NCBI GenBank assembly: GCA_027028665.1
Contig: JALVIU010000408.1
Span: forward strand, 1 to 18,856
Direction of reading: 5' to 3'
Length of the DNA stretch: 18,856 bases
From: Candidatus Atribacteria bacterium
Lineage (GTDB): Bacteria > Atribacterota > JALVIU01
Part shown: positions 1,385 to 15,525 of the stretch, piece after piece
Position numbering within the stretch: the first letter of the stretch is position 1
Layout of the letters: the number at the start of each line of letters is the position of its first letter
The notes under the pieces: generated by a model
What the model was told of the DNA's origin: nothing
The model's input: the letters and a program-made list of their open reading frames with translations, nothing else
The model's database searches: none
Program-made: the position numbers and the translations under genes

Positions 1385-2659
1385 TTACAAATTTACTTTA
1401 TCTTTTGCGAGAAGATTTATTAGTTTAAATAGTTTTTTCTTTGTAGTAAAATCATAACTTAATACATGTACATTGAAGCCCATGTAAGATTTTGCATAGC
1501 CGTAAAGTTTCCATAGTAATCCATAGGACTTGAGCTCTGCTTTTAAGAGTCCGCCACCTCTTATAGAAATAAAGGGACCCATTACCTCATACACCTTTCC
1601 AGAAAGCTTTAGATATAGGTACACATCTGCCTTGCCTTTTGCCTCAGGGAATTCGTAGTATGGCTTAAATTTTACCTTACTCCAATTACTTTTACTTGTT
1701 CCTTCGCCTTTTTCCCATGCAACTTTGCCCCCTATAGTCATACTTGTACGTACGCCTACAGCAAATTCATCTGCCACACTTAGATCTATCCCTGCATGAA
1801 CATAAAGTGGAAAAGAGACTTCTACAGGGACAGCTCCTACAAATACTACATAGCGAGGATGAGCTACAGTAGTATTGATCAGATTAATATTCAATTCTGA
1901 TTTATCATCATATTTTGACTTATTTTTTGTATCTTTGCTCATACTTAGTAGTGCTGAAGATAGTTTGACATCTACATATGGATTACCTGTAATTTTCAGG
2001 GACATATATTTGGGTACTCCCCAACTAAATTTTAATTTTATTTTTACATGAATCTTTAAACCCATGGTTGTTTCTCCATGGAATTTGAAACCTTTATAAT
2101 CAAAATCTTTCTCAAATGTTTTTTCGGTGCTTACAGTAAATCTTGATGGATCTTCATTCTGAAAGAGCCCTTGATATTCTGAAAGTGATACATCTTTATC
2201 AATCTCTATAGAACCTGATAAAAATACATTTTCTAAGTATGCGTTTTCAGTTTCTAATGTTTTTGACCCTCTTTCTCCTGTTTTTATCCCTGTTACTCTT
2301 AAAAGTGTCCAGGATGTATCTTTTTTAAATACAAGTATTGTTCCTTCCTTTATTGAATTTACCTTGGAAGATACATCTTTAGAAGGAGAGAGAATAATAC
2401 TGTTTCCAGACATAGAAGCACCACGGGTATTTTCTGGATCCAACACTACCACATCTGGGGAGATTACTACATCCTTATAGGTTACTACAATACCTGATAC
2501 AGGGTCTTGATATGTACCACTTATAGGGGTCCCTTCTATCTGAGGAGTAGGAGAGAGGAGTGGCGGTACAGTAGGAGATTTGGTATTACAACCGGTAAAT
2601 AGGAGTACTATAACTATTAAAGAGATGAATATATATGCTAATTTTTTATTTTTATACAT
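1385..2659 (-). CDS. Predicted lipoprotein, beta-rich, function unknown
   Basis: 424 aa. The N-terminus MYKNKK plus a hydrophobic stretch ends in the lipobox LFTGC, so signal peptidase II should cleave before Cys24. A Pro/Ser/Thr-rich tether (about 25-45) follows. Residues about 50-165 alternate short hydrophobic strands (VVVLDPENTRG, GTILVFKKD, TLLRVTGI, LENVFLSGSIEI). From memory, the pattern value-strand, 'G-t-v-l', 'l-r-r-V-t', 'T-e-x-a-x-L-e-d-x-f' recurs in uncharacterised secreted proteins of many bacteria. Residues about 180-424 look like a long beta-sandwich or barrel-like region ending in the motifs VMGPFISIRGGG and WKLYGYAKSYMGFNVHVL. No enzyme motif is seen. The ATG at 2659 overlaps the upstream TAA by one base (TAATG), with AGGAGG just upstream, so the two lipoproteins are translationally coupled. 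A role at the cell surface is inferred from the signal only. Confidence 0.85.
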   Translation of the reverse strand: MYKNKKLAYIFISLIVIVLLFTGCNTKSPTVPPLLSPTPQIEGTPISGTYQDPVSGIVVTYKDVVISPDVVVLDPENTRGASMSGNSIILSPSKDVSSKVNSIKEGTILVFKKDTSWTLLRVTGIKTGERGSKTLETENAYLENVFLSGSIEIDKDVSLSEYQGLFQNEDPSRFTVSTEKTFEKDFDYKGFKFHGETTMGLKIHVKIKLKFSWGVPKYMSLKITGNPYVDVKLSSALLSMSKDTKNKSKYDDKSELNINLINTTVAHPRYVVFVGAVPVEVSFPLYVHAGIDLSVADEFAVGVRTSMTIGGKVAWEKGEGTSKSNWSKVKFKPYYEFPEAKGKADVYLYLKLSGKVYEVMGPFISIRGGGLLKAELKSYGLLWKLYGYAKSYMGFNVHVLSYDFTTKKKLFKLINLLAKDKVNL

Positions 2660-3270
2660 TATTTATCTCCTCCTGCTGATTCATTTTTTAAAAGATATAC
2701 AGTAGTAGAGGCTTTTACATTTAAGCCTTTATCTGTAGTCCCATAAAATGTATACTTTTTTATAAGGTATACATTTTCCTCATCACCTTTTGCTTTTTTT
2801 ATATACCGTAATGATTGGCTTTCTTCTGCAGAGATTTCCCCTCCTTCTGGAATATAATTATTGCCAAAGATTACTTTTATGAAATTTTGTGGCAATGTAA
2901 TTATTACAGGAGAATCAGGGTGATCGGGGGGGTATGTCTCTATCTGTAAACTATTGAGTGTTATCCCCGTATCTACTGCTTTTACATAGACCGTATATAC
3001 CCAACCTTTTTCTTCATCATAGGGTACATTTTCTGGATCAGTCCAAGCCTCTATAGATGTGCTGGGCATAGCAGTAAGTAGCCCTCCTTGTTGCTCTTCA
3101 GATGTGAGCTCATCAAATTCATTATCTGAAAGAGATATTTCTGTTCCTGGAGATGTAAGAGTAAACCCTCCAAATTCTGATTCATCTACAGTGTAAGTAG
3201 TCCCACACCCAGAGAACATGAACATTAATAAAAGCAAAGCAAGAAAAACAAAAATTTTAAAAATTTTCAT
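2659..3270 (-). CDS. Predicted lipoprotein with Ig-like beta pattern, function unknown
   Basis: 203 aa. The signal sequence MKIFKIFVFL followed by Leu/Met/Phe ends in the lipobox FSGC, giving a lipidated Cys22. The mature part opens with an acidic, Ser/Thr/Gly-rich linker (about 25-70, pI very low), then a domain of alternating strands (WVYTVYVKAV, LNSLQIETYPP, PVIITLPQNFIKVIFG, VYLIKKYTFYG, VKASTTVYLL). This fits an Ig-like or carbohydrate-binding sandwich, although no family is recognised. GGGAGG at 3284-3279 sits 8 nt from the ATG. It is the first gene of a two-gene operon; its stop overlaps the start of the second lipoprotein by one base, which suggests the two act together at the envelope. 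Confidence 0.83.
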   Translation of the reverse strand: MKIFKIFVFLALLLLMFMFSGCGTTYTVDESEFGGFTLTSPGTEISLSDNEFDELTSEEQQGGLLTAMPSTSIEAWTDPENVPYDEEKGWVYTVYVKAVDTGITLNSLQIETYPPDHPDSPVIITLPQNFIKVIFGNNYIPEGGEISAEESQSLRYIKKAKGDEENVYLIKKYTFYGTTDKGLNVKASTTVYLLKNESAGGDK

Positions 3271-5450: not shown

Positions 5451-7868
5451 ATGGCCGAAAATATAAGGGAACTTACCTCAGCTGAGGTATATAAAAGATG
5501 TGATCCATCTATATTCAAATTTGAAACCACTAAGGAGTTAAACTCTTTAGAGGAACTAATAGGACAGGAAAGGGCAGTAAGGGCTATAGATTTTGGTCTT
5601 AGAATAAAGAGAAATGATTACAATCTTTACCTTTCTGGTCTCCCTGGAACAGGAAAAACAAGTTATATAAGGGCATATCTTAAAGAGGTAGCAAAGAAAG
5701 AAAAAACTCCTTCTGATTGGTTGTATGTTTATAATTTTAAGCAACCATCCAAACCAAGGGCAATAAACCTTCCTGCGGGAAAAGGCGAAAAATTTTGTCA
5801 AGATATGAATGAATTTATTGAAGAGCTTAAGGTAGAGCTTCCCAAGGTATTCTCAAGTGAAGAATATGAAAAGCGAAAAGTTGCTGTAATGAAAGAGGTC
5901 CAGGAGAAGAGTAATGAGATAATGGAGGCCTTAAATGAAGAGGCAAAGAAGGAAGGACTTGCCATTGTAAGGACAAATGCAGGATATGTAACAATTCCTA
6001 TTATAAATGGAAGACAGATTACACCAGAGGAATTTGAGATACTTCCAGATGAAGTAAAAAAAGAGATAGAGGAGAAGACAAAAAAGATCCAGGACAAACT
6101 TCTTGAGGCATTAAGGCAGATAAGAAATATGGAGAAAGATGCAAAAAAGACCCTATCTGAGCTTGATAGGCAGACTGCTTTATTTGTAGTTTCTCCTCGT
6201 ATAGAGGAGTTATTAGAAGAGTATAAGGGACATGAAAAGATAGAAGAATATCTAAAGAGTGTCCAGGATGACATAGTAGATAATCTAAGCATTTTTCTTC
6301 CTCAAGAAGAGACATCCCCTCTTAATTTATTGCTAAAAAGTAAATCTTCTCCTTTTACAAGGTATAAGGTAAATCTCATAGTAAATAGAAAGGGCTCAGA
6401 GGGTGCACCTATCGTAGAAGAGGCAAATCCCACATATTCAAATCTTGTAGGAAAGGTGGAATATGAAGGACAATTTGGAACTATGGTGACAGATTTCACA
6501 AAGATAAGGGCAGGGGCCTTTCATAGAGCAAATGGAGGATATCTTATATTACAGATTAGAGATGTATTAAGTAATTTGGGTTCCTGGGATGCATTAAAGA
6601 GAATCTTAAAAACAGGTTCTATAAAGATAGAGAGCCTGAGTGAAAAATTGGGCCTTACTACTATTGATTCTTTAAAACCAGAACCCATCCCTGTAAAGGT
6701 AAAAGTTATATTAGTAGGGAATCCTTTACTTTATCACCTTTTATATCAGTATGATGAGGATTTTTCCAAGCTCTTTAAGATTAAGGCAGATTTTGATTGG
6801 GTAATGAAAAGAGATAATGAAAATATTGAGAAACTTGCAAGTTTTGTAAGTTCATACTGTAAAAAAGAGGGGCTTAAGCATTTTGATAAGACAGGAATGG
6901 CAAGACTTATAGAATACTCAAGCAGGATGTCTGATAATCAGGATAAACTAAGTGCAATGTTTAACAGGCTCACAGAAATAATACAGGAATCTGCCACATG
7001 GGCAGAGATAGAGGGTGCAGATGTTGTAAGTGAAAGGCATGTTGATAAGGCAATAGAGGAGAAGATCTATCGTTCAAATCTCTATGAGGAAAAGATCCAG
7101 GAGATGATAGAGAAGGGTAAGATACTTATAGATATAGATGGAGAAAAGGTGGGTCAGATAAACGGACTTGCAGTGCTTTCTCTGGGTGATTATAGTTTTG
7201 CCAAACCATCAAAGATAACAGCAAATGTATTTTTAGGGAAAGAAGGAGTAGTAAATATAGAGCGAGAGGTAAAGCTAAGTGGTAATATACATAGTAAAGG
7301 GGTTTTAATACTTTCAGGTTTTTTGAGGGATAGATTTTCTCAGGAGTTTCCTCCAAGTTTTTCTGCTACCCTTGCCTTTGAACAGGTATATGAGGGAGTA
7401 GATGGAGATAGTGCATCAAGTACAGAGCTATATGCACTTTTGTCTGCCCTATCTGGTGTTCCCATAAGACAGTATATTGCTGTAACAGGTTCTATAAACC
7501 AAAAAGGTGAGATACAGCCAATAGGTGGTGTAAATGAAAAGATAGAGGGATTTTTCAAGGTCTGTAAGGCCAAAGGTCTAACAGGAAAACAGGGGGTCAT
7601 AATCCCTGTGCAAAATATCGATAATCTAATGCTTGATAAGGAGGTTCAAGAAGCGATAGATAAAGGACTATTTCATATATATCCTGTTAGCCATGTAAGT
7701 GAGGGGATAAAGATACTCACAGGTATGGAACTTGGGATACCAAAGGAGGATGGCTCATATCCAGAAGGTACCATATCCTATCTCGTGCAAAAGAGATTAA
7801 AGGATATGCTGGATAAGCTTAAGGCACTTGATTCAAAAGAGAATAATAAAGAAAAAAATAAGGAGTAA
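5451..7868 (+). CDS. Lon-related ATP-dependent protease (LonB-like, AAA_32 + Lon_C)
   Basis: 805 aa, cytoplasmic. Residues 1-70 lead into Walker A GLPGTGKT (63-70). A long charged, coiled-coil-prone insertion (about 120-290) follows, then the second half of the AAA module with FHRANGGYLIL (357-367) and a sensor region around VILVGNP. The C-terminal Lon protease domain (about 565-760) has catalytic Ser654 in DGDSAS and Lys697 in GGVNEK, 43 residues apart as in E. coli Lon (679 and 722). It lacks the N-terminal LON substrate domain of LonA and has no membrane insertion as in archaeal LonB, so it belongs to the bacterial Lon-related group with an insertion inside the ATPase module. Its likely job is degradation of misfolded or regulatory proteins. 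GGGGTGAT 8 nt before ATG 5451 extends pairing to the 16S tail. Probably cotranscribed with the aldolase. Confidence 0.9.
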   Translation: MAENIRELTSAEVYKRCDPSIFKFETTKELNSLEELIGQERAVRAIDFGLRIKRNDYNLYLSGLPGTGKTSYIRAYLKEVAKKEKTPSDWLYVYNFKQPSKPRAINLPAGKGEKFCQDMNEFIEELKVELPKVFSSEEYEKRKVAVMKEVQEKSNEIMEALNEEAKKEGLAIVRTNAGYVTIPIINGRQITPEEFEILPDEVKKEIEEKTKKIQDKLLEALRQIRNMEKDAKKTLSELDRQTALFVVSPRIEELLEEYKGHEKIEEYLKSVQDDIVDNLSIFLPQEETSPLNLLLKSKSSPFTRYKVNLIVNRKGSEGAPIVEEANPTYSNLVGKVEYEGQFGTMVTDFTKIRAGAFHRANGGYLILQIRDVLSNLGSWDALKRILKTGSIKIESLSEKLGLTTIDSLKPEPIPVKVKVILVGNPLLYHLLYQYDEDFSKLFKIKADFDWVMKRDNENIEKLASFVSSYCKKEGLKHFDKTGMARLIEYSSRMSDNQDKLSAMFNRLTEIIQESATWAEIEGADVVSERHVDKAIEEKIYRSNLYEEKIQEMIEKGKILIDIDGEKVGQINGLAVLSLGDYSFAKPSKITANVFLGKEGVVNIEREVKLSGNIHSKGVLILSGFLRDRFSQEFPPSFSATLAFEQVYEGVDGDSASSTELYALLSALSGVPIRQYIAVTGSINQKGEIQPIGGVNEKIEGFFKVCKAKGLTGKQGVIIPVQNIDNLMLDKEVQEAIDKGLFHIYPVSHVSEGIKILTGMELGIPKEDGSYPEGTISYLVQKRLKDMLDKLKALDSKENNKEKNKE

Positions 7869-7899: not shown

Positions 7900-8862
7900 C
7901 TAAATCACCAGATGACATGCTACCTTATGTTCCCCCTGTACAGTTTTTAACTTGGGTTCGACCTCACGACAGATAGGTTTTGCATAGGGACAACGGGTAT
8001 GAAATCTACACCCTGAGGGTGGGTTTGTAGGATTTGGTACATCCCCCTCAAGTGTGGTTATCTTCTTTTCTCCATCTGGTGGATGTGGGGGAAGTATAGA
8101 TGAAAAGAGTGCCTTTGTATATGGATGTATAGGATTTTTCACAATATCTTCTGTTTTTCCTATCTCTACAATCCTTCCAAGGTACATAACAGCTATGCGG
8201 GTACTTAGATATTTGATAACACTTAAATCGTGAGATATAAATAGATATGTAAGATTTAACTCCTCTCTTAGCTTACGAATAAGATTTAGGATCTGTGCCT
8301 GGACAGATACATCAAGTGCAGATGTGGGCTCATCAAGTACGATAAATTCAGGGTCGAGGATAAGTGCCCTGGCGATCCCTATCCTTTGCCTCTGTCCTCC
8401 TGAGAACTCATGAGGAAACCTATCAAGCCTTGGTAGCGGAAGCCCTACCTTGGCAAGTGTCTCTTTTGCCTTCTCTATACGCTCTTTTTTTGTTCCGATA
8501 TTGTGTATCTTTAGAGGAGATGTGAGTATTGCCCCTACAGTCATACGGGGATCCAGTGAAGAATATGGGTCTTGAAATACTATCTGGATCTTTCTCCTCA
8601 GCTTTTGTTCCTCATTTTTTGGAATCTTTGTTAGATCTTTCCCCTCATAATATATGGTACCATCTGTAGGGGGTAGAAGATTTAAAAGCACCTGTCCAAG
8701 TGTAGATTTTCCACACCCTGATTCCCCTACAAGACCAAGGGTTTCTCCCCTTTCTATCCTTAAATTGACCCCATCTACTGCCTTTAATACCTTTTTTCCA
8801 CCTAATACACTCTTTTTTACAAAGTATTTTTTTACATTTTCTAATCTAATCAGTTCTTCCAT
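7900..8862 (-). CDS. dppF: Dipeptide/oligopeptide ABC transporter ATP-binding protein, DppF/OppF-like
   Basis: 320 aa from the preferred ATG at 8862. Walker A GESGCGKS (46-53), Q-loop Gln97, signature FSGGQRQR (153-160), Walker B FIVLDE (173-178) and His211 are all intact, so it should hydrolyse ATP. The C-terminal oligopeptide-transporter domain ends GCRFHTRCPYAKPIC...ACHLVI with Cys285, 291, 298 and 316, a pattern that in this family can hold an iron-sulphur cluster. It pairs with the DppD-like protein to drive the two permeases. A longer reading from ATG 8886 adds MKRWKDWA, but it overlaps the upstream gene by 41 nt and does not match the usual family start; the shorter one (17 nt overlap) fits better. 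No strong Shine-Dalgarno sequence is present, so coupling is likely. Last gene of the operon. Confidence 0.93.
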   Translation of the reverse strand: MEELIRLENVKKYFVKKSVLGGKKVLKAVDGVNLRIERGETLGLVGESGCGKSTLGQVLLNLLPPTDGTIYYEGKDLTKIPKNEEQKLRRKIQIVFQDPYSSLDPRMTVGAILTSPLKIHNIGTKKERIEKAKETLAKVGLPLPRLDRFPHEFSGGQRQRIGIARALILDPEFIVLDEPTSALDVSVQAQILNLIRKLREELNLTYLFISHDLSVIKYLSTRIAVMYLGRIVEIGKTEDIVKNPIHPYTKALFSSILPPHPPDGEKKITTLEGDVPNPTNPPSGCRFHTRCPYAKPICREVEPKLKTVQGEHKVACHLVI

Positions 8863-9847
8863 AGCCCAATCTTTCCATCTTTTCATTTTTTATTTTGTGA
8901 CACCAAACATAGTGCTCTTCTCCCAGGTGAAATCTTTCAGGTCTTCCTTCTTTGCAATACTCTTCGCGTATATCACATCTGTCATAAAAGAGACAACCCT
9001 TTGGAGGGTATATGAGGTTTGGGAGTGTTCCAGGTATGGTTGGCAGTTCTTCTCCCTCTTTTGCAAGGGATGGCAAAGAGCGAAGCAGTCCTTTTGTATA
9101 AGGGTGTGAAGGGTTTGTAAATATACTCTTTACCCTACCTTCTTCTACGATATTTCCTGCATACATTACAATTACCCTATCTGCTACATTTGCAACCACT
9201 CCAAGGTCGTGTGTTATAAGGAGAACTGCTGTGCCCCTCTTTTGTGAAAGATCTATGATGAGCCTTAAGATTTGTCCTTGAATGGTTACATCAAGTGCAG
9301 TAGTAGGTTCATCTGCAATGAGGATCTCTGGGTCAGAGGATAGTGCCATAGCGATCATCACCCTCTGCCTCATACCACCTGATAATTCAAAAGGGTATTT
9401 ATTAAGCACACCTTCTGGATCTGGCATTTTTACCTCTTTTAGCATCTTTTTTGCAATATTTAAGGCCCTGTTTTTGTTGACCTTTTTGTGAACCATTATC
9501 ACCTCTGACATAAGTGTACCGATCTTGAGCACGGGATTTAGAGAGGTCATAGGCTCCTGAAAGATCATAGAGATGTCTTTACCCCTTATTGTTCTCATCT
9601 CTTCTTCAGACAAAGAGAGAAGATCTTTTCCCCTATATAATATCTTACCCTCTTCTATCTTTCCAGGTTCTTTTATAAGCCTCATTATAGAGCGTGCAGT
9701 AACTGACTTTCCACACCCTGTTTCTCCAACAAGACCAAGGATCTCTCCTGGATATAGAGAAAAACTTACACCGGTAAGTGCCTTAAGGACACCTCTATAT
9801 GTATGAAAATATGTATGTAGTCCTTCTACTTTTAATAGCTCTTCCAT
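8846..9847 (-). CDS. dppD: Dipeptide/oligopeptide ABC transporter ATP-binding protein, DppD/OppD-like
   Basis: 333 aa. Walker A GETGCGKS (41-48), Q-loop Gln97 (FQEPMTSLNP), signature LSGGMRQR (155-162), Walker B ILIADE (175-180) and His213 mark a complete ABC ATPase. The C-terminal extension (PSHPYTKGLL, then GCLFYDRC...YC...WC) carries Cys285, 291, 298 and 316, at the very same positions as in the partner DppF-like protein. This extension is typical of peptide and nickel transporters. The ATG at 9847 directly abuts the TAA of the permease gene, with AGGGG upstream. The C-terminal tail after Cys316 (KIKNEKMERLGYGRTD) is slightly long and its coding sequence overlaps the start of dppF. Confidence 0.93.
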   Translation of the reverse strand: MEELLKVEGLHTYFHTYRGVLKALTGVSFSLYPGEILGLVGETGCGKSVTARSIMRLIKEPGKIEEGKILYRGKDLLSLSEEEMRTIRGKDISMIFQEPMTSLNPVLKIGTLMSEVIMVHKKVNKNRALNIAKKMLKEVKMPDPEGVLNKYPFELSGGMRQRVMIAMALSSDPEILIADEPTTALDVTIQGQILRLIIDLSQKRGTAVLLITHDLGVVANVADRVIVMYAGNIVEEGRVKSIFTNPSHPYTKGLLRSLPSLAKEGEELPTIPGTLPNLIYPPKGCLFYDRCDIREEYCKEGRPERFHLGEEHYVWCHKIKNEKMERLGYGRTD

Positions 9848-10693
9848 TTATCTACCCCTTATCTTTGGATCAAGTATATCTCTTAGTCCATCACCGAATA
9901 GATTAAATCCCATTACTGCTAAGAATATAAATAATCCAGGGAATGTTGCATACCACCATTGATCGAGTATGTATTTTCTTCCTACACTGACCAGTGCACC
10001 CCATTCAGGTGTAGGGGGTTGGGCACCGAGTCCTATAAAGCTCAGAGATGCTGCAACCAGTATAGCATCACCCATTACAAGACTTGCAAGTACTATAACA
10101 GATGAGAGGGAGTTGGGTATTATGTGTCGAAAGATTATATATAGAGGTTTCCCCCCCTGGGCACGAGTGGCAAGCACAAAGGGTTTTTCCTTTAGTGATA
10201 GGGTTTCTCCCCTTACGAGCCTTGAGAATTTTGGTATCATGATGAATGCAACTGCCATCATAGAGTTTACAAGACTTGGACCAAGGGCTGCTGCAATGGA
10301 TAAGGCAAGTACCAGGGGAGGAAATGCCATAACGATATCCATAAGTCGCATTATTATATTATCGAACTGTCCTCCATAATATCCAGAAAAAGCACCGATG
10401 AGTATTCCAGGTATACCTGCCAGAAGTACAACCACTATACCTACCTGAAGTGATATTCGAGACCCATATATTACCCTGCTTAACAGGTCTCTTCCTACTT
10501 CATCTGTGCCAAAGGGGTGTTTTAGGGAAGGGGGAGCAAGCTTTTCTCTTAGACTTATTCTATTGGGATTGTATGGTGCGATAAGGGGTGCAAATATAGC
10601 CATGAGTATTAATAGTATAACAAGAACTGCCCCAAACAGGGTAAGGGGACTTTTCAATATTAAGTATAGTGTAAGTGGCATTTTCTTTTTCAT
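9848..10693 (-). CDS. dppC: Dipeptide/oligopeptide ABC transporter permease, DppC/OppC-like
   Basis: 281 aa inner-membrane permease. An N-terminal helix (about 17-40) is followed by the OppC-type periplasmic motif FGTDEVGRDLLSRVIYGSR (61-79), then five more helices. The cytoplasmic EAA loop, which contacts the ATPases, is at about 174-194 (ATRAQGG...FRHIIPN). GLGAQPPTPEWG (221-232) is a further DppC hallmark. It forms the channel with the DppB-like subunit. Its ATG lies 3 nt after the dppB stop and its stop abuts the dppD start, the tight packing expected of one mRNA. Confidence 0.94.
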   Translation of the reverse strand: MKKKMPLTLYLILKSPLTLFGAVLVILLILMAIFAPLIAPYNPNRISLREKLAPPSLKHPFGTDEVGRDLLSRVIYGSRISLQVGIVVVLLAGIPGILIGAFSGYYGGQFDNIIMRLMDIVMAFPPLVLALSIAAALGPSLVNSMMAVAFIMIPKFSRLVRGETLSLKEKPFVLATRAQGGKPLYIIFRHIIPNSLSSVIVLASLVMGDAILVAASLSFIGLGAQPPTPEWGALVSVGRKYILDQWWYATFPGLFIFLAVMGFNLFGDGLRDILDPKIRGR

Positions 10694-10696
10694 AGG

Positions 10697-11707
10697 CTAA
10701 TACCTTATCTGTGGATCTAAAAATGCATATATAACATCCACCAATAGATTCATAAATACATATATAAATGTTACAACTACCGTAAATCCCATAATTGCAG
10801 GGAAGTCAAGGTAATTTATAGATTCAACTACATATTTTCCTACACCAGGAAAAGAAAATATAGTTTCTGTAAGTATAGCACCACCCATAAGTTCTCCAAA
10901 GGAGATACCTATAATGGTTACAACAGGTATAAGTGCATTTTTGAGTGCATGCTTTAGTATAATGCTTTTCTCTGGAATTCCATTTGCCCTTGCGGTTTCT
11001 ATATACTCTTTATTTAATACCTCAAGCATGGATGATCGGGTAATACGGGTAATAATGGCAAGATATACATATCCAAGACAAAAGGCAGGAAGTATAAGAT
11101 GTGTAAGTGCACTTATAAATACAGGCCAGTTTCCTGTAAGGAGTGCATCTATGGTATACATTCCTGTAATGTGTGTAGGTGGGGACAATATGGTATCAAG
11201 TCTTCCAGAACCTGGCAATATCTTTAGCTTACTGTAAAATACCAAAAGCAATAAGAGCCCTAACCAGAATACAGGCATAGAGACTCCGAAGATGGAAAAA
11301 GTACGGGAGATATGGTCTGGCCATCTATTTCTCTTGATCGCAGATATTATCCCTAAGGGAATCCCCGCACCTATGGCAAACAACATACTGAAGAATGTAA
11401 GCTCTAATGTAGCAGGGAAGTACTTTTTAAGATCTGTAGCTACATCTATACCTGTCCTTATCGATTTTCCAAAATCTCCCTTTAAAAGGCCCCTTAAGTA
11501 TATCATGTACTGCACATAGATAGGCTTATCAAGACCAAGGTCGTGTCTTATTCTTTCTATAGTAGCCTTTGAGGCCTTGGGGCCGGCAATGAGACTTGCC
11601 GGATCCCCAGGGATAGTATGAGAAATAAGAAATACAAGGATCGTTACCCCTAACATTACAGGGATGATATATAGTAATCTTATACCTATGTATTTTGCTA
11701 TTCTCAT
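10697..11707 (-). CDS. dppB: Dipeptide/oligopeptide ABC transporter permease, DppB/OppB-like
   Basis: 336 aa inner-membrane permease with six predicted helices. The N-terminal helix (about 8-30) is followed by the family motif IPGDPASLIAGP and a periplasmic region with LGLDKPIYVQY and GDFGKSI. The EAA loop lies at 235-260 (ETARANGIPEKS...ALKNALIP). The C-terminal half contains GGAILTETIFSFPGVGKYVVESI, which is characteristic of OppB/DppB. The ATG comes 3 nt after the solute-binding protein stop and lacks an obvious Shine-Dalgarno sequence, so it probably relies on ribosomes arriving from the upstream gene. No hairpin separates it from the binding-protein gene, although many operons of this kind have one there. 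Confidence 0.94.
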   Translation of the reverse strand: MRIAKYIGIRLLYIIPVMLGVTILVFLISHTIPGDPASLIAGPKASKATIERIRHDLGLDKPIYVQYMIYLRGLLKGDFGKSIRTGIDVATDLKKYFPATLELTFFSMLFAIGAGIPLGIISAIKRNRWPDHISRTFSIFGVSMPVFWLGLLLLLVFYSKLKILPGSGRLDTILSPPTHITGMYTIDALLTGNWPVFISALTHLILPAFCLGYVYLAIITRITRSSMLEVLNKEYIETARANGIPEKSIILKHALKNALIPVVTIIGISFGELMGGAILTETIFSFPGVGKYVVESINYLDFPAIMGFTVVVTFIYVFMNLLVDVIYAFLDPQIRY

Positions 11708-11710
11708 GAT

Positions 11711-13240
11711 TTATTTATAGATAGATTCAAAGTTGTACATCCTCTCAAGCATTGGGTTGTATATAAAGTTCTTTACTTCTTTTCTCATAGGAATGATGCT
11801 CATAGTCTGATAGAGCAAGATATATGGTGCATCTTCCATTATGATATCCTGTGCCTTTTTATAAAGCTCTTCTCTCTTTTTCTGATCTGGTATCTTAAGT
11901 GCTTCTCTTATGAGCTTATCCACCTCATCGTTTTTGTAGAAGGACCTATTACCTGCAAGACCCCACTTAGAAGAATCAAACCAGTAGTTCATAAACATAG
12001 ATGGATCTGCAAAGTCTGGTGACCATCTACCCATACAGAGGTCAAACTGTCCTTTGTCAACTTTTTCTCTCATGGTTGGGTTTGCAAGCTTTCTTATGTT
12101 GAGTTTTACCCCAATGTCTGCAAAATTGCTCTGGAGAATAAGTACCTCTTCTTCCCAGGTAGGCTGTACGCTTGAATACATAATTTCAAGCTCGAGTCCT
12201 TTTGCATATCCTGCCTTTTTAAGAAGTTCCTTTGCCTTTTTGGGGTCATATGTATACTGAAAAACATCTTCACTGTGTCCCCACATACCCTTAGGAATTG
12301 GTCCTCTCATCTGAATACCATTACCCTTGAGAACAAAATCGATAATACCCTTATAGTCTACTGCATAGTTAAGTGCCTGTCTTACAAGTTTATTATCAAG
12401 AGGTTTCTTCTGGTTATTTATATATACATAGTTACAGAGCTGAGATGGGTATTTTCTTATAACTACATCTTTATTTTTAGCAAGTTTTTCAAGCTGATCT
12501 ACCAATATACCATCTGCTATATCTATATCTCCTCTCTCAAGTGCCATTCTCTGGTCTGTGGATTCTTTTATTACCTTTATTATAACCTCTTTTAACTTTG
12601 GCTTCTCGCCCCAATAATCATCCTTTGCCTCAAGTACGATCTTCTCATCCTTTACCCATTCTTTGAGTCTAAATGGTCCAGACCCGTCGATATGTGTAGC
12701 AAGCCATTTCTGGGCAAGGTCTCCATTCTCTTCGTGTTTTATGATATTTGGGTTTAGAATGCTTGCAGCATTTGTTGCAAGTGTGTAGATAAATGGTGCA
12801 TATGGATACTCTAATACAAATTGTACCTCATAGTCACCTAAGATCTTTATTTCTTTTATTTCTGTGAAATAATCAGATGGTCCTTTTCCTATCTTTTTCA
12901 ATCTTTCAAATGTGAATTTTACTGCCTTTGCATCAAGAGGTGTGCCGTCGTCAAATTTTATTCCTTTCTTCAATTTGAATGTCCATACAGTGCCATCTTC
13001 ATTTGCCTGCCAGGATTCTGCAACAGATGGCTCTACCTCAGTGGATGAGCCCTTATACTTTACAAGCCTGTCATAGCAAGGGTATGTAACCCTCCAATCC
13101 TGATTGTCAAATGTCACTGCTGGATCAAGTATTCTTACATCTTCTCTTGTACCTACAACTAATACATCTTTTGGAGTTGCAAAAGCTAAAGTAGAAATTA
13201 AAAGTACCAATACAAAAATTAAAATACCATACTTTTTCAT
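11711..13240 (-). CDS. dppA: ABC transporter solute-binding protein, SBP_bac_5 (peptide) family
   Basis: 509 aa periplasmic receptor that should deliver peptides, or possibly oligosaccharides or nickel, to the DppBCDF-like transporter. A cleavable signal peptide (MKKYG plus a hydrophobic core) ends in AFA before T22. There is no lipobox Cys, which suggests a free periplasmic protein and hence an outer membrane. Family-5 features run throughout: LVVGTREDVRILDPA at the mature start, AESWQANEDGTVWTFKLKKG (about 74-93), DGTPLDAKAVKFTFERL, GSGPFRLKEW, NNQKKPLDNKLVRQALNYAVD and GRWSPDFADPSMFMNYW. First gene of the operon, with a strong AAGGAGGAGG before ATG 13240 and its own promoter. In some thermophiles this family binds cello- or manno-oligosaccharides, so peptide specificity is inferred. 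Confidence 0.94.
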   Translation of the reverse strand: MKKYGILIFVLVLLISTLAFATPKDVLVVGTREDVRILDPAVTFDNQDWRVTYPCYDRLVKYKGSSTEVEPSVAESWQANEDGTVWTFKLKKGIKFDDGTPLDAKAVKFTFERLKKIGKGPSDYFTEIKEIKILGDYEVQFVLEYPYAPFIYTLATNAASILNPNIIKHEENGDLAQKWLATHIDGSGPFRLKEWVKDEKIVLEAKDDYWGEKPKLKEVIIKVIKESTDQRMALERGDIDIADGILVDQLEKLAKNKDVVIRKYPSQLCNYVYINNQKKPLDNKLVRQALNYAVDYKGIIDFVLKGNGIQMRGPIPKGMWGHSEDVFQYTYDPKKAKELLKKAGYAKGLELEIMYSSVQPTWEEEVLILQSNFADIGVKLNIRKLANPTMREKVDKGQFDLCMGRWSPDFADPSMFMNYWFDSSKWGLAGNRSFYKNDEVDKLIREALKIPDQKKREELYKKAQDIIMEDAPYILLYQTMSIIPMRKEVKNFIYNPMLERMYNFESIYK

Positions 13241-13272: not shown

Positions 13273-13301
13273 ATCATAGTATATTTTTATTATAAAGTCA
13301 A
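13273..13301 (-). promoter_or_regulatory. Sigma-A promoter of the dpp operon
   Basis: Minus strand: TTGACT (13301-13296), 17-bp spacer, TATGAT (13278-13273); start near 13266. It sits within 40 bp of the stop codon of the upstream HTH gene, and no terminator hairpin lies between them. Confidence 0.65.
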
Positions 13302-13309
13302 GGATTTAG

Positions 13310-13924
13310 TTAAGCTATTTCTTTTTGTGATAATATTTTCTTTATTTTATGTAATATTTCTGCAGGTGTTTTTACAGGAAATTCCATATTTTCTACTAAC
13401 TCATTGGCAGGTATATTTTTTATAACTATTCCTTCTAATCTTTCTTTTAACTCTTCTTTAGTAAGTGGAAAATTTGCCCCTCTAAGCCTTATTAATACCT
13501 TTATGGCCCATTCTACTCCAAGTACTTCTAACTCTTTTTCTTTAATAAAGATTCCCTTTTCCTCTTTTACTTTTTTGTAGGCAAGCTTTGCTATGCCTCC
13601 TGCTTTGTGAAAGTCGATTTTTTCAAATTCCCCTTCTAAGTATTTTAGTATGAGTTCTTCATTTGATTGAAGGATTTTTTTTACTGTTTGTTCCGTTATG
13701 CCGAGTGTCTCCGCTATTTCATAATGTGTTTTAAGAAGCTCTTCTTTTAAGATAATTACATAAGCTGCTTCTGCTAAAGAGGGAAGCCATGTGAGATTTC
13801 TATAATCGATGAGTTTTCTTAATCCACCAAGAATTTTTATACTTTCTTCAAATACCCTTTCCGCAAGAAAATCAATATCTGTCTCAGTGATAGGTTTGGA
13901 AATTACCTCCATTTGCTTAGACAT
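13310..13924 (-). CDS. KaiC-associated probable regulator with HTH (near_KaiC_dom-like)
   Basis: 204 aa from the preferred ATG at 13924. I recognise it as like the 'probable regulatory domain' family found beside KaiC-like ATPases in archaea (TIGR03879-type); this is from memory. The segment YRNLTWLPSLAEAAYVIILK (41-60) leads into a helix-turn-helix THYEIAETLGITEQTVKKIL (66-85), like a sigma-70 region 4 or LuxR helix pair. A second helical domain (about 130-200) ends TPAEILHKIKKIL. No membrane segment or enzyme motif. GGAGG, inside the last codons of the ATPase gene, is 9 nt from this ATG, 4 nt after the ATPase stop. A longer reading from 13957 would overlap the ATPase gene by 29 nt and is not preferred. 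Probably a DNA- or protein-binding output partner of the ATPase. Confidence 0.8.
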   Translation of the reverse strand: MSKQMEVISKPITETDIDFLAERVFEESIKILGGLRKLIDYRNLTWLPSLAEAAYVIILKEELLKTHYEIAETLGITEQTVKKILQSNEELILKYLEGEFEKIDFHKAGGIAKLAYKKVKEEKGIFIKEKELEVLGVEWAIKVLIRLRGANFPLTKEELKERLEGIVIKNIPANELVENMEFPVKTPAEILHKIKKILSQKEIA

Positions 13925-13928
13925 CGTT

Positions 13929-14780
13929 TTACACCTCCCTTTTGATAAAGTCATCAATTGGGGTAAGAATATCTATAGTTCCTCCCTCGGTAATCTCAAA
14001 TACCCAGTTTTTTGTGTCGTGACCTGTAAGACGACAGCCATCTATACGGATAGTTCGGAAAATGCTCCCTATAGGAAGTCCATATAGATTTATTTCCCAC
14101 TTTGTTTCTATCAATTTTTTATTCATTACAATAGTTCCATCTACTATATGGGCTACAGCAAGCCCTCCTGCAGCTTCTGGAGAAGTTGCATCTTGACTGG
14201 ATCTTTTTTGAGAGACAAATACCCCTGTTTGCCTCCACTTTTTTAGAAAATTGAAGAATATTCTTATTATCTGTCGTGCAGTCATTTCTTTGTGTTCATA
14301 GAGACCTGTAATACTATCTATGATCACATTCGTAATCTTCTTTTCTTTTATTGCATAGGCCATGGTTTCGATTAAAGCTTTTGGATTTTCTCTTAATTCA
14401 TCATTTTGTGAAGCATCAATTACTATTATATTTTTTTCTACTTTTTTAAAGTCTATCTTAAGATAGGCACTTTTTTGTTTAAGCGAAGTGTATAAAAAGT
14501 TTACAGGAGACTCTACTGAAACAAATAAAACTTTATAATCTCTTTCTGCTTGAACGATGGCAAACTGTTCTGCAAGTAGGCTTTTCCCCGTATCCGGTGT
14601 TCCAGTTATATTTATAACAGAGAGATAAGGTATTCCCCCAATAGGTTTTTTTATAAAATTTCCATTTTTTTCTTCTATTGTCCAGAACATCTCATCAAGT
14701 TTTGTTCCTGTAGGGATTCCAAAGAGTTTAGGAGCATCTACTTTTAATTCAGAAAGTTCCAAAAACAATTTTTCTGGCAC
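13929..14780 (-). CDS. KaiC-like RecA-superfamily ATPase, single domain
   Basis: 283 aa with one KaiC/RadA-type ATPase domain. Walker A is GTPDTGKS (60-67), a possible catalytic Glu is Glu90 (FVSVESP), and Walker B is NVIIDS (151-156). A C-terminal part reads IDGCRLTGHDTKNW then FEITEGG (247-267), a pattern seen in KaiC-family proteins. The start FGIPTGTKLDEMFWTIE is like the 'G-ipTGI..LDelf' opening of the family. It matches archaeal-style single KaiC proteins that sit beside the HTH partner family (PAE1156/AF_0351-like), rather than the double-domain cyanobacterial clock protein. Its role is unknown; signal transduction is the usual suggestion. The start is GTG (14780-14778), 6 nt after a GGGGGG run; an ATG overlapping it is out of frame. 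First gene of a two-gene operon. Confidence 0.88.
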   Translation of the reverse strand: MPEKLFLELSELKVDAPKLFGIPTGTKLDEMFWTIEEKNGNFIKKPIGGIPYLSVINITGTPDTGKSLLAEQFAIVQAERDYKVLFVSVESPVNFLYTSLKQKSAYLKIDFKKVEKNIIVIDASQNDELRENPKALIETMAYAIKEKKITNVIIDSITGLYEHKEMTARQIIRIFFNFLKKWRQTGVFVSQKRSSQDATSPEAAGGLAVAHIVDGTIVMNKKLIETKWEINLYGLPIGSIFRTIRIDGCRLTGHDTKNWVFEITEGGTIDILTPIDDFIKREV

Positions 14781-15226: not shown

Positions 15227-15525
15227 ATGGATATTACACAGGATCTAAGTGAATATGGTAAAAATCAATTAGCAAAATTAATGGAAGATCTACTATGGGA
15301 GATAATGGGAAAAGAGAGATATGAGTTTATTAGAGAATAAAGATGATAAGGGTAATAGATATATACAAGAGTCTCTCTATATCCTTTGGTACATTAAGTC
15401 TAAAGATATCCGGGTAAGAAGCGGAGATTTTGTTCCTTATTAACCCCAGAAAAGTATAAAAGACATGATGAGAGTTTGAAGATCTTATATTCTCTCTAAT
15501 ATTTATGGTAGGGAGAATAGCCATA
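15227..15525 (+). pseudogene. IS256-family (mutator-type) transposase, frameshifted N-terminal relic
   Basis: Pieces of one protein in three frames. Frame one, ATG 15227 to TAA 15338-15340, gives 37 aa including GKNQLAKLMEDLLWEIMGKE and RYEFIRE, the usual start of IS256-type transposases. The adjoining frame (about 15335-15440) gives NKDDKGNRYIQESLYIL and SKDIRVRSGDFVPY, matching the family's 'G-N-x-Y-x-R-x-L' and 'I-x-V-P-R-x-R-x-G-x-F-x-P' segments. Frame one resumes at 15437 with LLTPEKYKRHDESL, and a third frame from 15481 gives DLIFSLI. The order and spacing match 'LPxYKRHDESLEDLIxSLY' of intact members. The catalytic DDE region, about two thirds of the protein, is missing. At least three indels show it is long dead. 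Identification is by memory of the family pattern. Confidence 0.7.

Follow-up and report, generated by a model that had tools for sequence, protein, structure and literature searches.

A bacterial KaiC-family ATPase and its near-KaiC regulator: archaeal-type relatives and an association with reverse gyrase

The two-gene unit and its surroundings

The window, that is, the whole stretch of 18,856 nucleotides analysed here, carries on its minus strand a KaiC-family ATPase gene (13929..14780, stop included; 283 aa, GTG start; TIGR03878), followed by a gene for a near-KaiC helix-turn-helix (HTH) regulator (13310..13924; 204 aa, ATG start), whose product combines an N-terminal TIGR03879 domain with a C-terminal domain. 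The genes are co-encoded as a two-gene unit of their own. As had been stated in a sequence-only reading of this DNA, the spacer from the KaiC gene to the HTH gene is 4 nt (13925-13928), and the Shine-Dalgarno sequence of the latter, AGGGAGGTG (13932..13940, minus strand), is found within the last KaiC codons, 7 nt 5' of the ATG; both points are borne out by the sequence.

By hmmscan, the KaiC protein was assigned to TIGR03878 (thermo_KaiC_2), scoring 381.2 bits over residues 19-275 against a cutoff of 232.2, and it matched Pfam KaiC (PF06745) with an E-value of 3.6e-54. TIGR03880/03881, which had been proposed as its family, gave 40 and 71 bits against cutoffs near 249, and every KaiC family besides TIGR03878 was far under its cutoff. 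The protein has a single RecA/KaiC domain, in which Walker A (GTPDTGKS, residues 60-67; 14580..14603, minus strand), recognised from the sequence and the alignment of relatives, and Walker B (VIIDS, residues 152-156; 14313..14327, minus strand) are intact. Core residues of these motifs are invariant across the aligned relatives, among them I154, D155 and S156 of Walker B. The initial description of one KaiC domain with intact Walker motifs thus agrees with the sequence, the alignment and the TIGR03878 match.

The HTH protein belongs to TIGR03879 (near_KaiC_dom), with 115.7 bits against a cutoff of 65.1 over residues 31-122 (13559..13834, minus strand), a region containing a sigma-70-region-4-like HTH at about residues 54-87; the near-KaiC part as a whole takes up residues 1-125. 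The HMM search that had been suggested as a check therefore placed both proteins above curated cutoffs, and this match, together with the position beside a KaiC gene, upheld the earlier view of the partner as an HTH protein of a KaiC-associated family. Additionally, the protein carries a C-terminal domain of ~80 residues that had gone unmentioned, a putative DUF2795/MTH865-like domain, so classed from the homologues (about residues 129-204; 13313..13540, minus strand) that is present in long forms of the family and not in short ones. DUF2795 (PF11387) reached 14.1-16.2 bits on this part of the window protein, under the gathering score of 25, and matched 20/28 HTH homologues at E<=1 (best E 2.6e-6). 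Among the same 28 homologues, Sigma70_r4_2 was matched in 27 and HTH_23 in 25, and Pfam gave weak HTH matches only on the window protein itself. The window protein is of the long form, as in archaea, whereas other members of its own phylum have the short form. In four loci from that phylum (L003, L005, L006, L007), a remote version of the pair was observed, with a 130-aa HTH protein devoid of the C-terminal domain.

The AlphaFold model of the HTH protein (pLDDT 82) contains the HTH helices and an N-terminal part that is all helical, with a pTM of 0.57 that leaves the relative placing of the domains uncertain. Foldseek returned nothing for this model at E<=0.001, a result that says little on novelty, and a comparison by sequence found no solved structure for the family. 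The best neighbours by VIA-align were TFIIB/cyclin-type, DeoR and sigma -35 domains (Z <= 5.9), and this resemblance of the model to nucleic-acid-binding regulators may reflect a common helical arrangement alone.

Regarding the surroundings, a LonC/LonB-like protease (5451-7868) faces a complete oligopeptide (opp) ABC transporter (7900-13240), and nothing was found to link either of them to the pair. A promoter-like site, TTGACT-17-TATGAT (13273..13301, minus strand; 10 of 12 positions), separates the oppA-like gene from the pair, in a region where such sites are no commoner than by chance. Upstream of the pair, a frame-broken coding remnant (15227-15443) resembles an IS256-type transposase by eye, and Pfam had no match for the two pieces of it that were searched. 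Two adjacent predicted lipoproteins of 424 and 203 aa (1385-3270) likewise had no Pfam match at E<=1e-5.

Distribution and descent of the pair

TIGR03879 was found, in one copy each, in 48 of 50 genomes that had been selected because TIGR03878 was present, and the two genes are adjacent in most loci outside Aquificota. In Aquificota the genes are apart, although nearly all genomes sampled do carry the HTH gene. Within the 61-genome neighbourhood of the window, KaiC was above cutoff in six genomes (G000, G002, G004, G012, G048 and G059) and the HTH family in those six plus G018 and G020; in G059 the genes are unlinked, at 1057501 and 569168. The expectation that the partners travel together was thus confirmed, and the opposite case, partners usually found apart, failed. 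The pairing had also been regarded as an archaeal trait, which is only partly right: it is indeed found in archaea, and it is not restricted to them, being widespread in thermophilic bacteria, with a remote version in the window's own phylum.

A genome scan for relatives returned 80 loci, the closest of which (65-74% identity) come mainly from Archaeoglobi, Thermoplasmata and Methanophagales; a few of them are from DPANN archaea and three from Caldisericales bacteria. The trees of the two proteins agree on the placement of the window copy inside an archaeal clade, with support of 100/100 for KaiC and 100/97 for the HTH protein, and with Caldisericales as its sister (84/94 and 97/90, respectively). 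The copies from the window's own phylum group far away, in a clade characterised by the short HTH protein. In AU tests, forcing the window copy together with these was rejected (p=2e-5), as was a single bacterial clade (p 2e-75). Acquisition from archaea, which had been put forward as a possibility, is in line with both gene trees and the AU tests, and lateral transfer of the pair from the family's archaeal branch, to which the Caldisericales copies also belong, is supported. Since the phylum set of Caldisericales (54 genomes) includes neither G000 nor its listed relatives, the archaeal-type pair occurs in two bacterial phyla, and the window attests to its lateral spread into both.

A mis-binned contig was considered and rejected: the GC content of the window (0.363) and its tetranucleotide profile (r 0.93-0.97) match other contigs of the bin. 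For the Lon-like protein of the window, relatives at 42-54% identity occur throughout the phylum to which the window belongs. The IVYWREL fraction of the window proteome is 0.43, and this composition suggests that the organism is a thermophile. In Caldisericota (L217-L222; G066, G067, G069, G495), two unlike TIGR03878 types were observed, the compared copies sharing either about 72% or about 51-53% identity with that of the window.

A sister pair is found in Thermococcales-type loci (L154, L155, L157-L159), where a TIGR03877 protein (467 bits), very close to PH0284, accompanies TIGR03879. The partner in L157 has a long coiled-coil-like tail, and in L154 and L155 the gene after the pair resembles speD by eye. 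PF1931 and PF1932 of Pyrococcus furiosus are presumably such a TIGR03877/TIGR03879 pair (UPF0273).

Association with reverse gyrase

Reverse gyrase is regarded as the hallmark gene of hyperthermophily, and its regulation is largely unsettled. When neighbours were clustered across loci, archaeal loci proved to have a protein of ~1050 aa encoded immediately downstream of the pair, and all six of the six downstream proteins tested were confirmed as reverse gyrase by TIGR01054 (994-1241 bits). The order KaiC-HTH-reverse gyrase, tightly packed, is present in 12 Thermoplasmatota genomes, and the operon is also found in L031 (Aenigmatarchaeota) and in L057, from another archaeon; in L027 (Pacearchaeota), reverse gyrase lies about 4 kb from the pair. 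Operon loci comprise L017 (3229-7878), L018 (5986-10638), L019, L023, L029, L031, L036, L039 and L057. Genes often overlap in these loci, and the boundary between the HTH and reverse gyrase genes is either an overlap or a gap of a few bases (7442/7444 in L018, 7434/7427 in L023, 6822/6819 in L029). The reverse gyrases linked in this way belong to two clades far from each other, and as the copy of L057 stands apart from the rest, the linkage must either date from very early or have formed on more than one occasion.

This association is also seen in gene content. Among 243 Thermoplasmatota genomes, KaiC is present in 13, reverse gyrase in 14 and both in 13, so that reverse gyrase is found in 13/13 genomes with KaiC versus 1/230 without it (Fisher 1e-20, for genomes related by descent); the fourteenth reverse gyrase lies at a contig start in a genome without KaiC. 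Among 151 archaea, TIGR03879 of both partner types is present in 33 and reverse gyrase in 41, with reverse gyrase in 33/33 genomes that have the HTH family versus 8/118 of the others (Fisher 4.5e-26, kinship ignored). Such co-occurrence could arise from thermophily alone. Of the 50 KaiC-bearing genomes, 37 have a reverse gyrase and in 13 none was found. In the genome neighbourhood of the window, it was detected only in G002, G012 and G059; it was not found in G004 (99% complete) or G048, both of which carry the pair, and none was above cutoff in G000 (90% complete, 413 contigs, sampled contigs <3 kb reading N). In the window, the gene directly downstream of the pair encodes an oppA-like solute-binding protein and not reverse gyrase. 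Since no reverse gyrase was found in several genomes that carry the pair, it is not an obligate partner.

No shared inverted repeat rose above shuffles among the regions upstream of 94 KaiC and 23 unlinked reverse gyrase genes. In the open literature, with most subscription papers outside the search, no paper connecting KaiC with reverse gyrase was found, the single one in which both terms appear drawing no link. The near-KaiC family is named only as a "probable regulatory domain", and the reverse gyrase link, invisible from the window alone, represents its main functional lead. The operon and the near-perfect nesting of the HTH family within reverse gyrase genomes in archaea turn two questions into one testable hypothesis.

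Candidate roles and comparison with known systems

Regulation by the pair is inferred. We see even chances that it acts as a two-protein, ATP-gated transcriptional switch of a thermophile or reverse gyrase programme, ancestrally tied to reverse gyrase. In such a switch, the KaiC protein would form a ring that senses the ATP/ADP state, or temperature through the rate of hydrolysis, and that binds the HTH protein. The HTH protein would in turn bind promoter DNA and adjust the expression of reverse gyrase and other heat-adaptation genes, and would also autoregulate its own operon. In the organism of the window, the pair was laterally acquired and would now stand apart from any reverse gyrase gene. 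The intact ATPase motifs, the HTH matches, the co-occurrence of the two genes and their linkage to reverse gyrase speak for this reading, as does the heat-induced P. furiosus pair described below as a parallel. Counted against it were the pair-bearing genomes in which reverse gyrase was not found, the possibility that thermophily alone explains the co-occurrence, the lack of a shared inverted repeat and the fact that a search for KaiC-HTH fusions found none. The switch is favoured over a general stress regulator and, after that, over an accessory acting directly on DNA topology.

A general thermophile stress regulator, responding to heat or energy state and acting on many genes, is possible though rather unlikely. 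In that case, the link with reverse gyrase would mostly reflect a shared hot habitat and an inherited operon. The many thermophilic bacteria that carry the pair with no detectable reverse gyrase, the unlinked genes of Aquificota and the thermophile-like composition of the window proteome are consistent with this role. In P. furiosus, additionally, heat strongly induces both the KaiC-domain protein PF1931 and the predicted regulator PF1932, which carry Phr motifs and are assigned by prediction to the Phr heat-shock regulon (PMC10746257). However, Thermoplasmatota, one member of Aenigmatarchaeota and L057, with a reverse gyrase of a different clade, all have the pair next to reverse gyrase, with Pacearchaeota showing the genes ~4 kb apart, which argues against habitat and inheritance as the main source of the link.

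It is decidedly improbable that the pair is a physical accessory to reverse gyrase or to DNA topology, in which the HTH protein, together with a ring of KaiC/RecA type, would be loaded onto DNA and act on the topoisomerase or on repair directly rather than through transcription. Such a role would fit the place of KaiC within the RecA superfamily, the topoisomerase nature of the operon partner and the resemblance of the HTH protein to general nucleic-acid binders. However, the RadB and RadA matches of the window KaiC are weak and far under their cutoffs (RadB 33.9 bits against 172.4), and the pair persists in genomes with no detectable reverse gyrase. Control of the neighbouring peptide transporter, which the sequence-only reading had entertained, would make the pair a local regulator in the window genome and is very improbable, since the opp genes, despite lying 69 bp downstream on the same strand, are beside the pair in none of the related loci and are separated from it by a promoter-like site, itself weak evidence.

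Beyond the favoured switch, a broader proposal can be put forward tentatively: TIGR03878/TIGR03879 and the sister TIGR03877/TIGR03879 may constitute a regulator devoted to reverse gyrase and positive supercoiling and spread widely by transfer. This KaiC switch, gated by energy or temperature, would rank next to reverse gyrase as the second near-universal mark of hyperthermophily. The word "thermo" in the NCBIfam names shows that the thermophile bias of these families had been noticed before.

Among known systems, the cyanobacterial clock KaiC has in common with the window protein the KaiC ATPase domain and its Walker motifs; it possesses two KaiC domains rather than one, the window protein scores 35.4 bits against a TIGR02655 cutoff of 546.25, and neither KaiA nor KaiB was seen within the window. 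ArlH (FlaH) is, like the window KaiC, a single-domain KaiC-like ATPase; however, the window protein reaches 47.2 bits against a cutoff of 215 for NF052589, and no archaellum genes were seen within the window. Closer is thermo_KaiC_1 (TIGR03877; PH0284/UPF0273) with its own TIGR03879 partner, which follows the same two-gene logic in thermophiles with a paralogous partner domain, and PH0284 (structure 2dr3) is the nearest solved KaiC-fold chain to the window KaiC. Nevertheless, the latter gives 61.9 bits against the TIGR03877 cutoff of 307.25, and the partner domain of the sister pair is shorter, with a coiled-coil-like tail where the window protein has the DUF2795-like domain. Judged from sequence, the window pair is a further member of families whose pairing NCBIfam already names, TIGR03878 and TIGR03879, both of whose cutoffs its proteins pass with ordinary divergence only.
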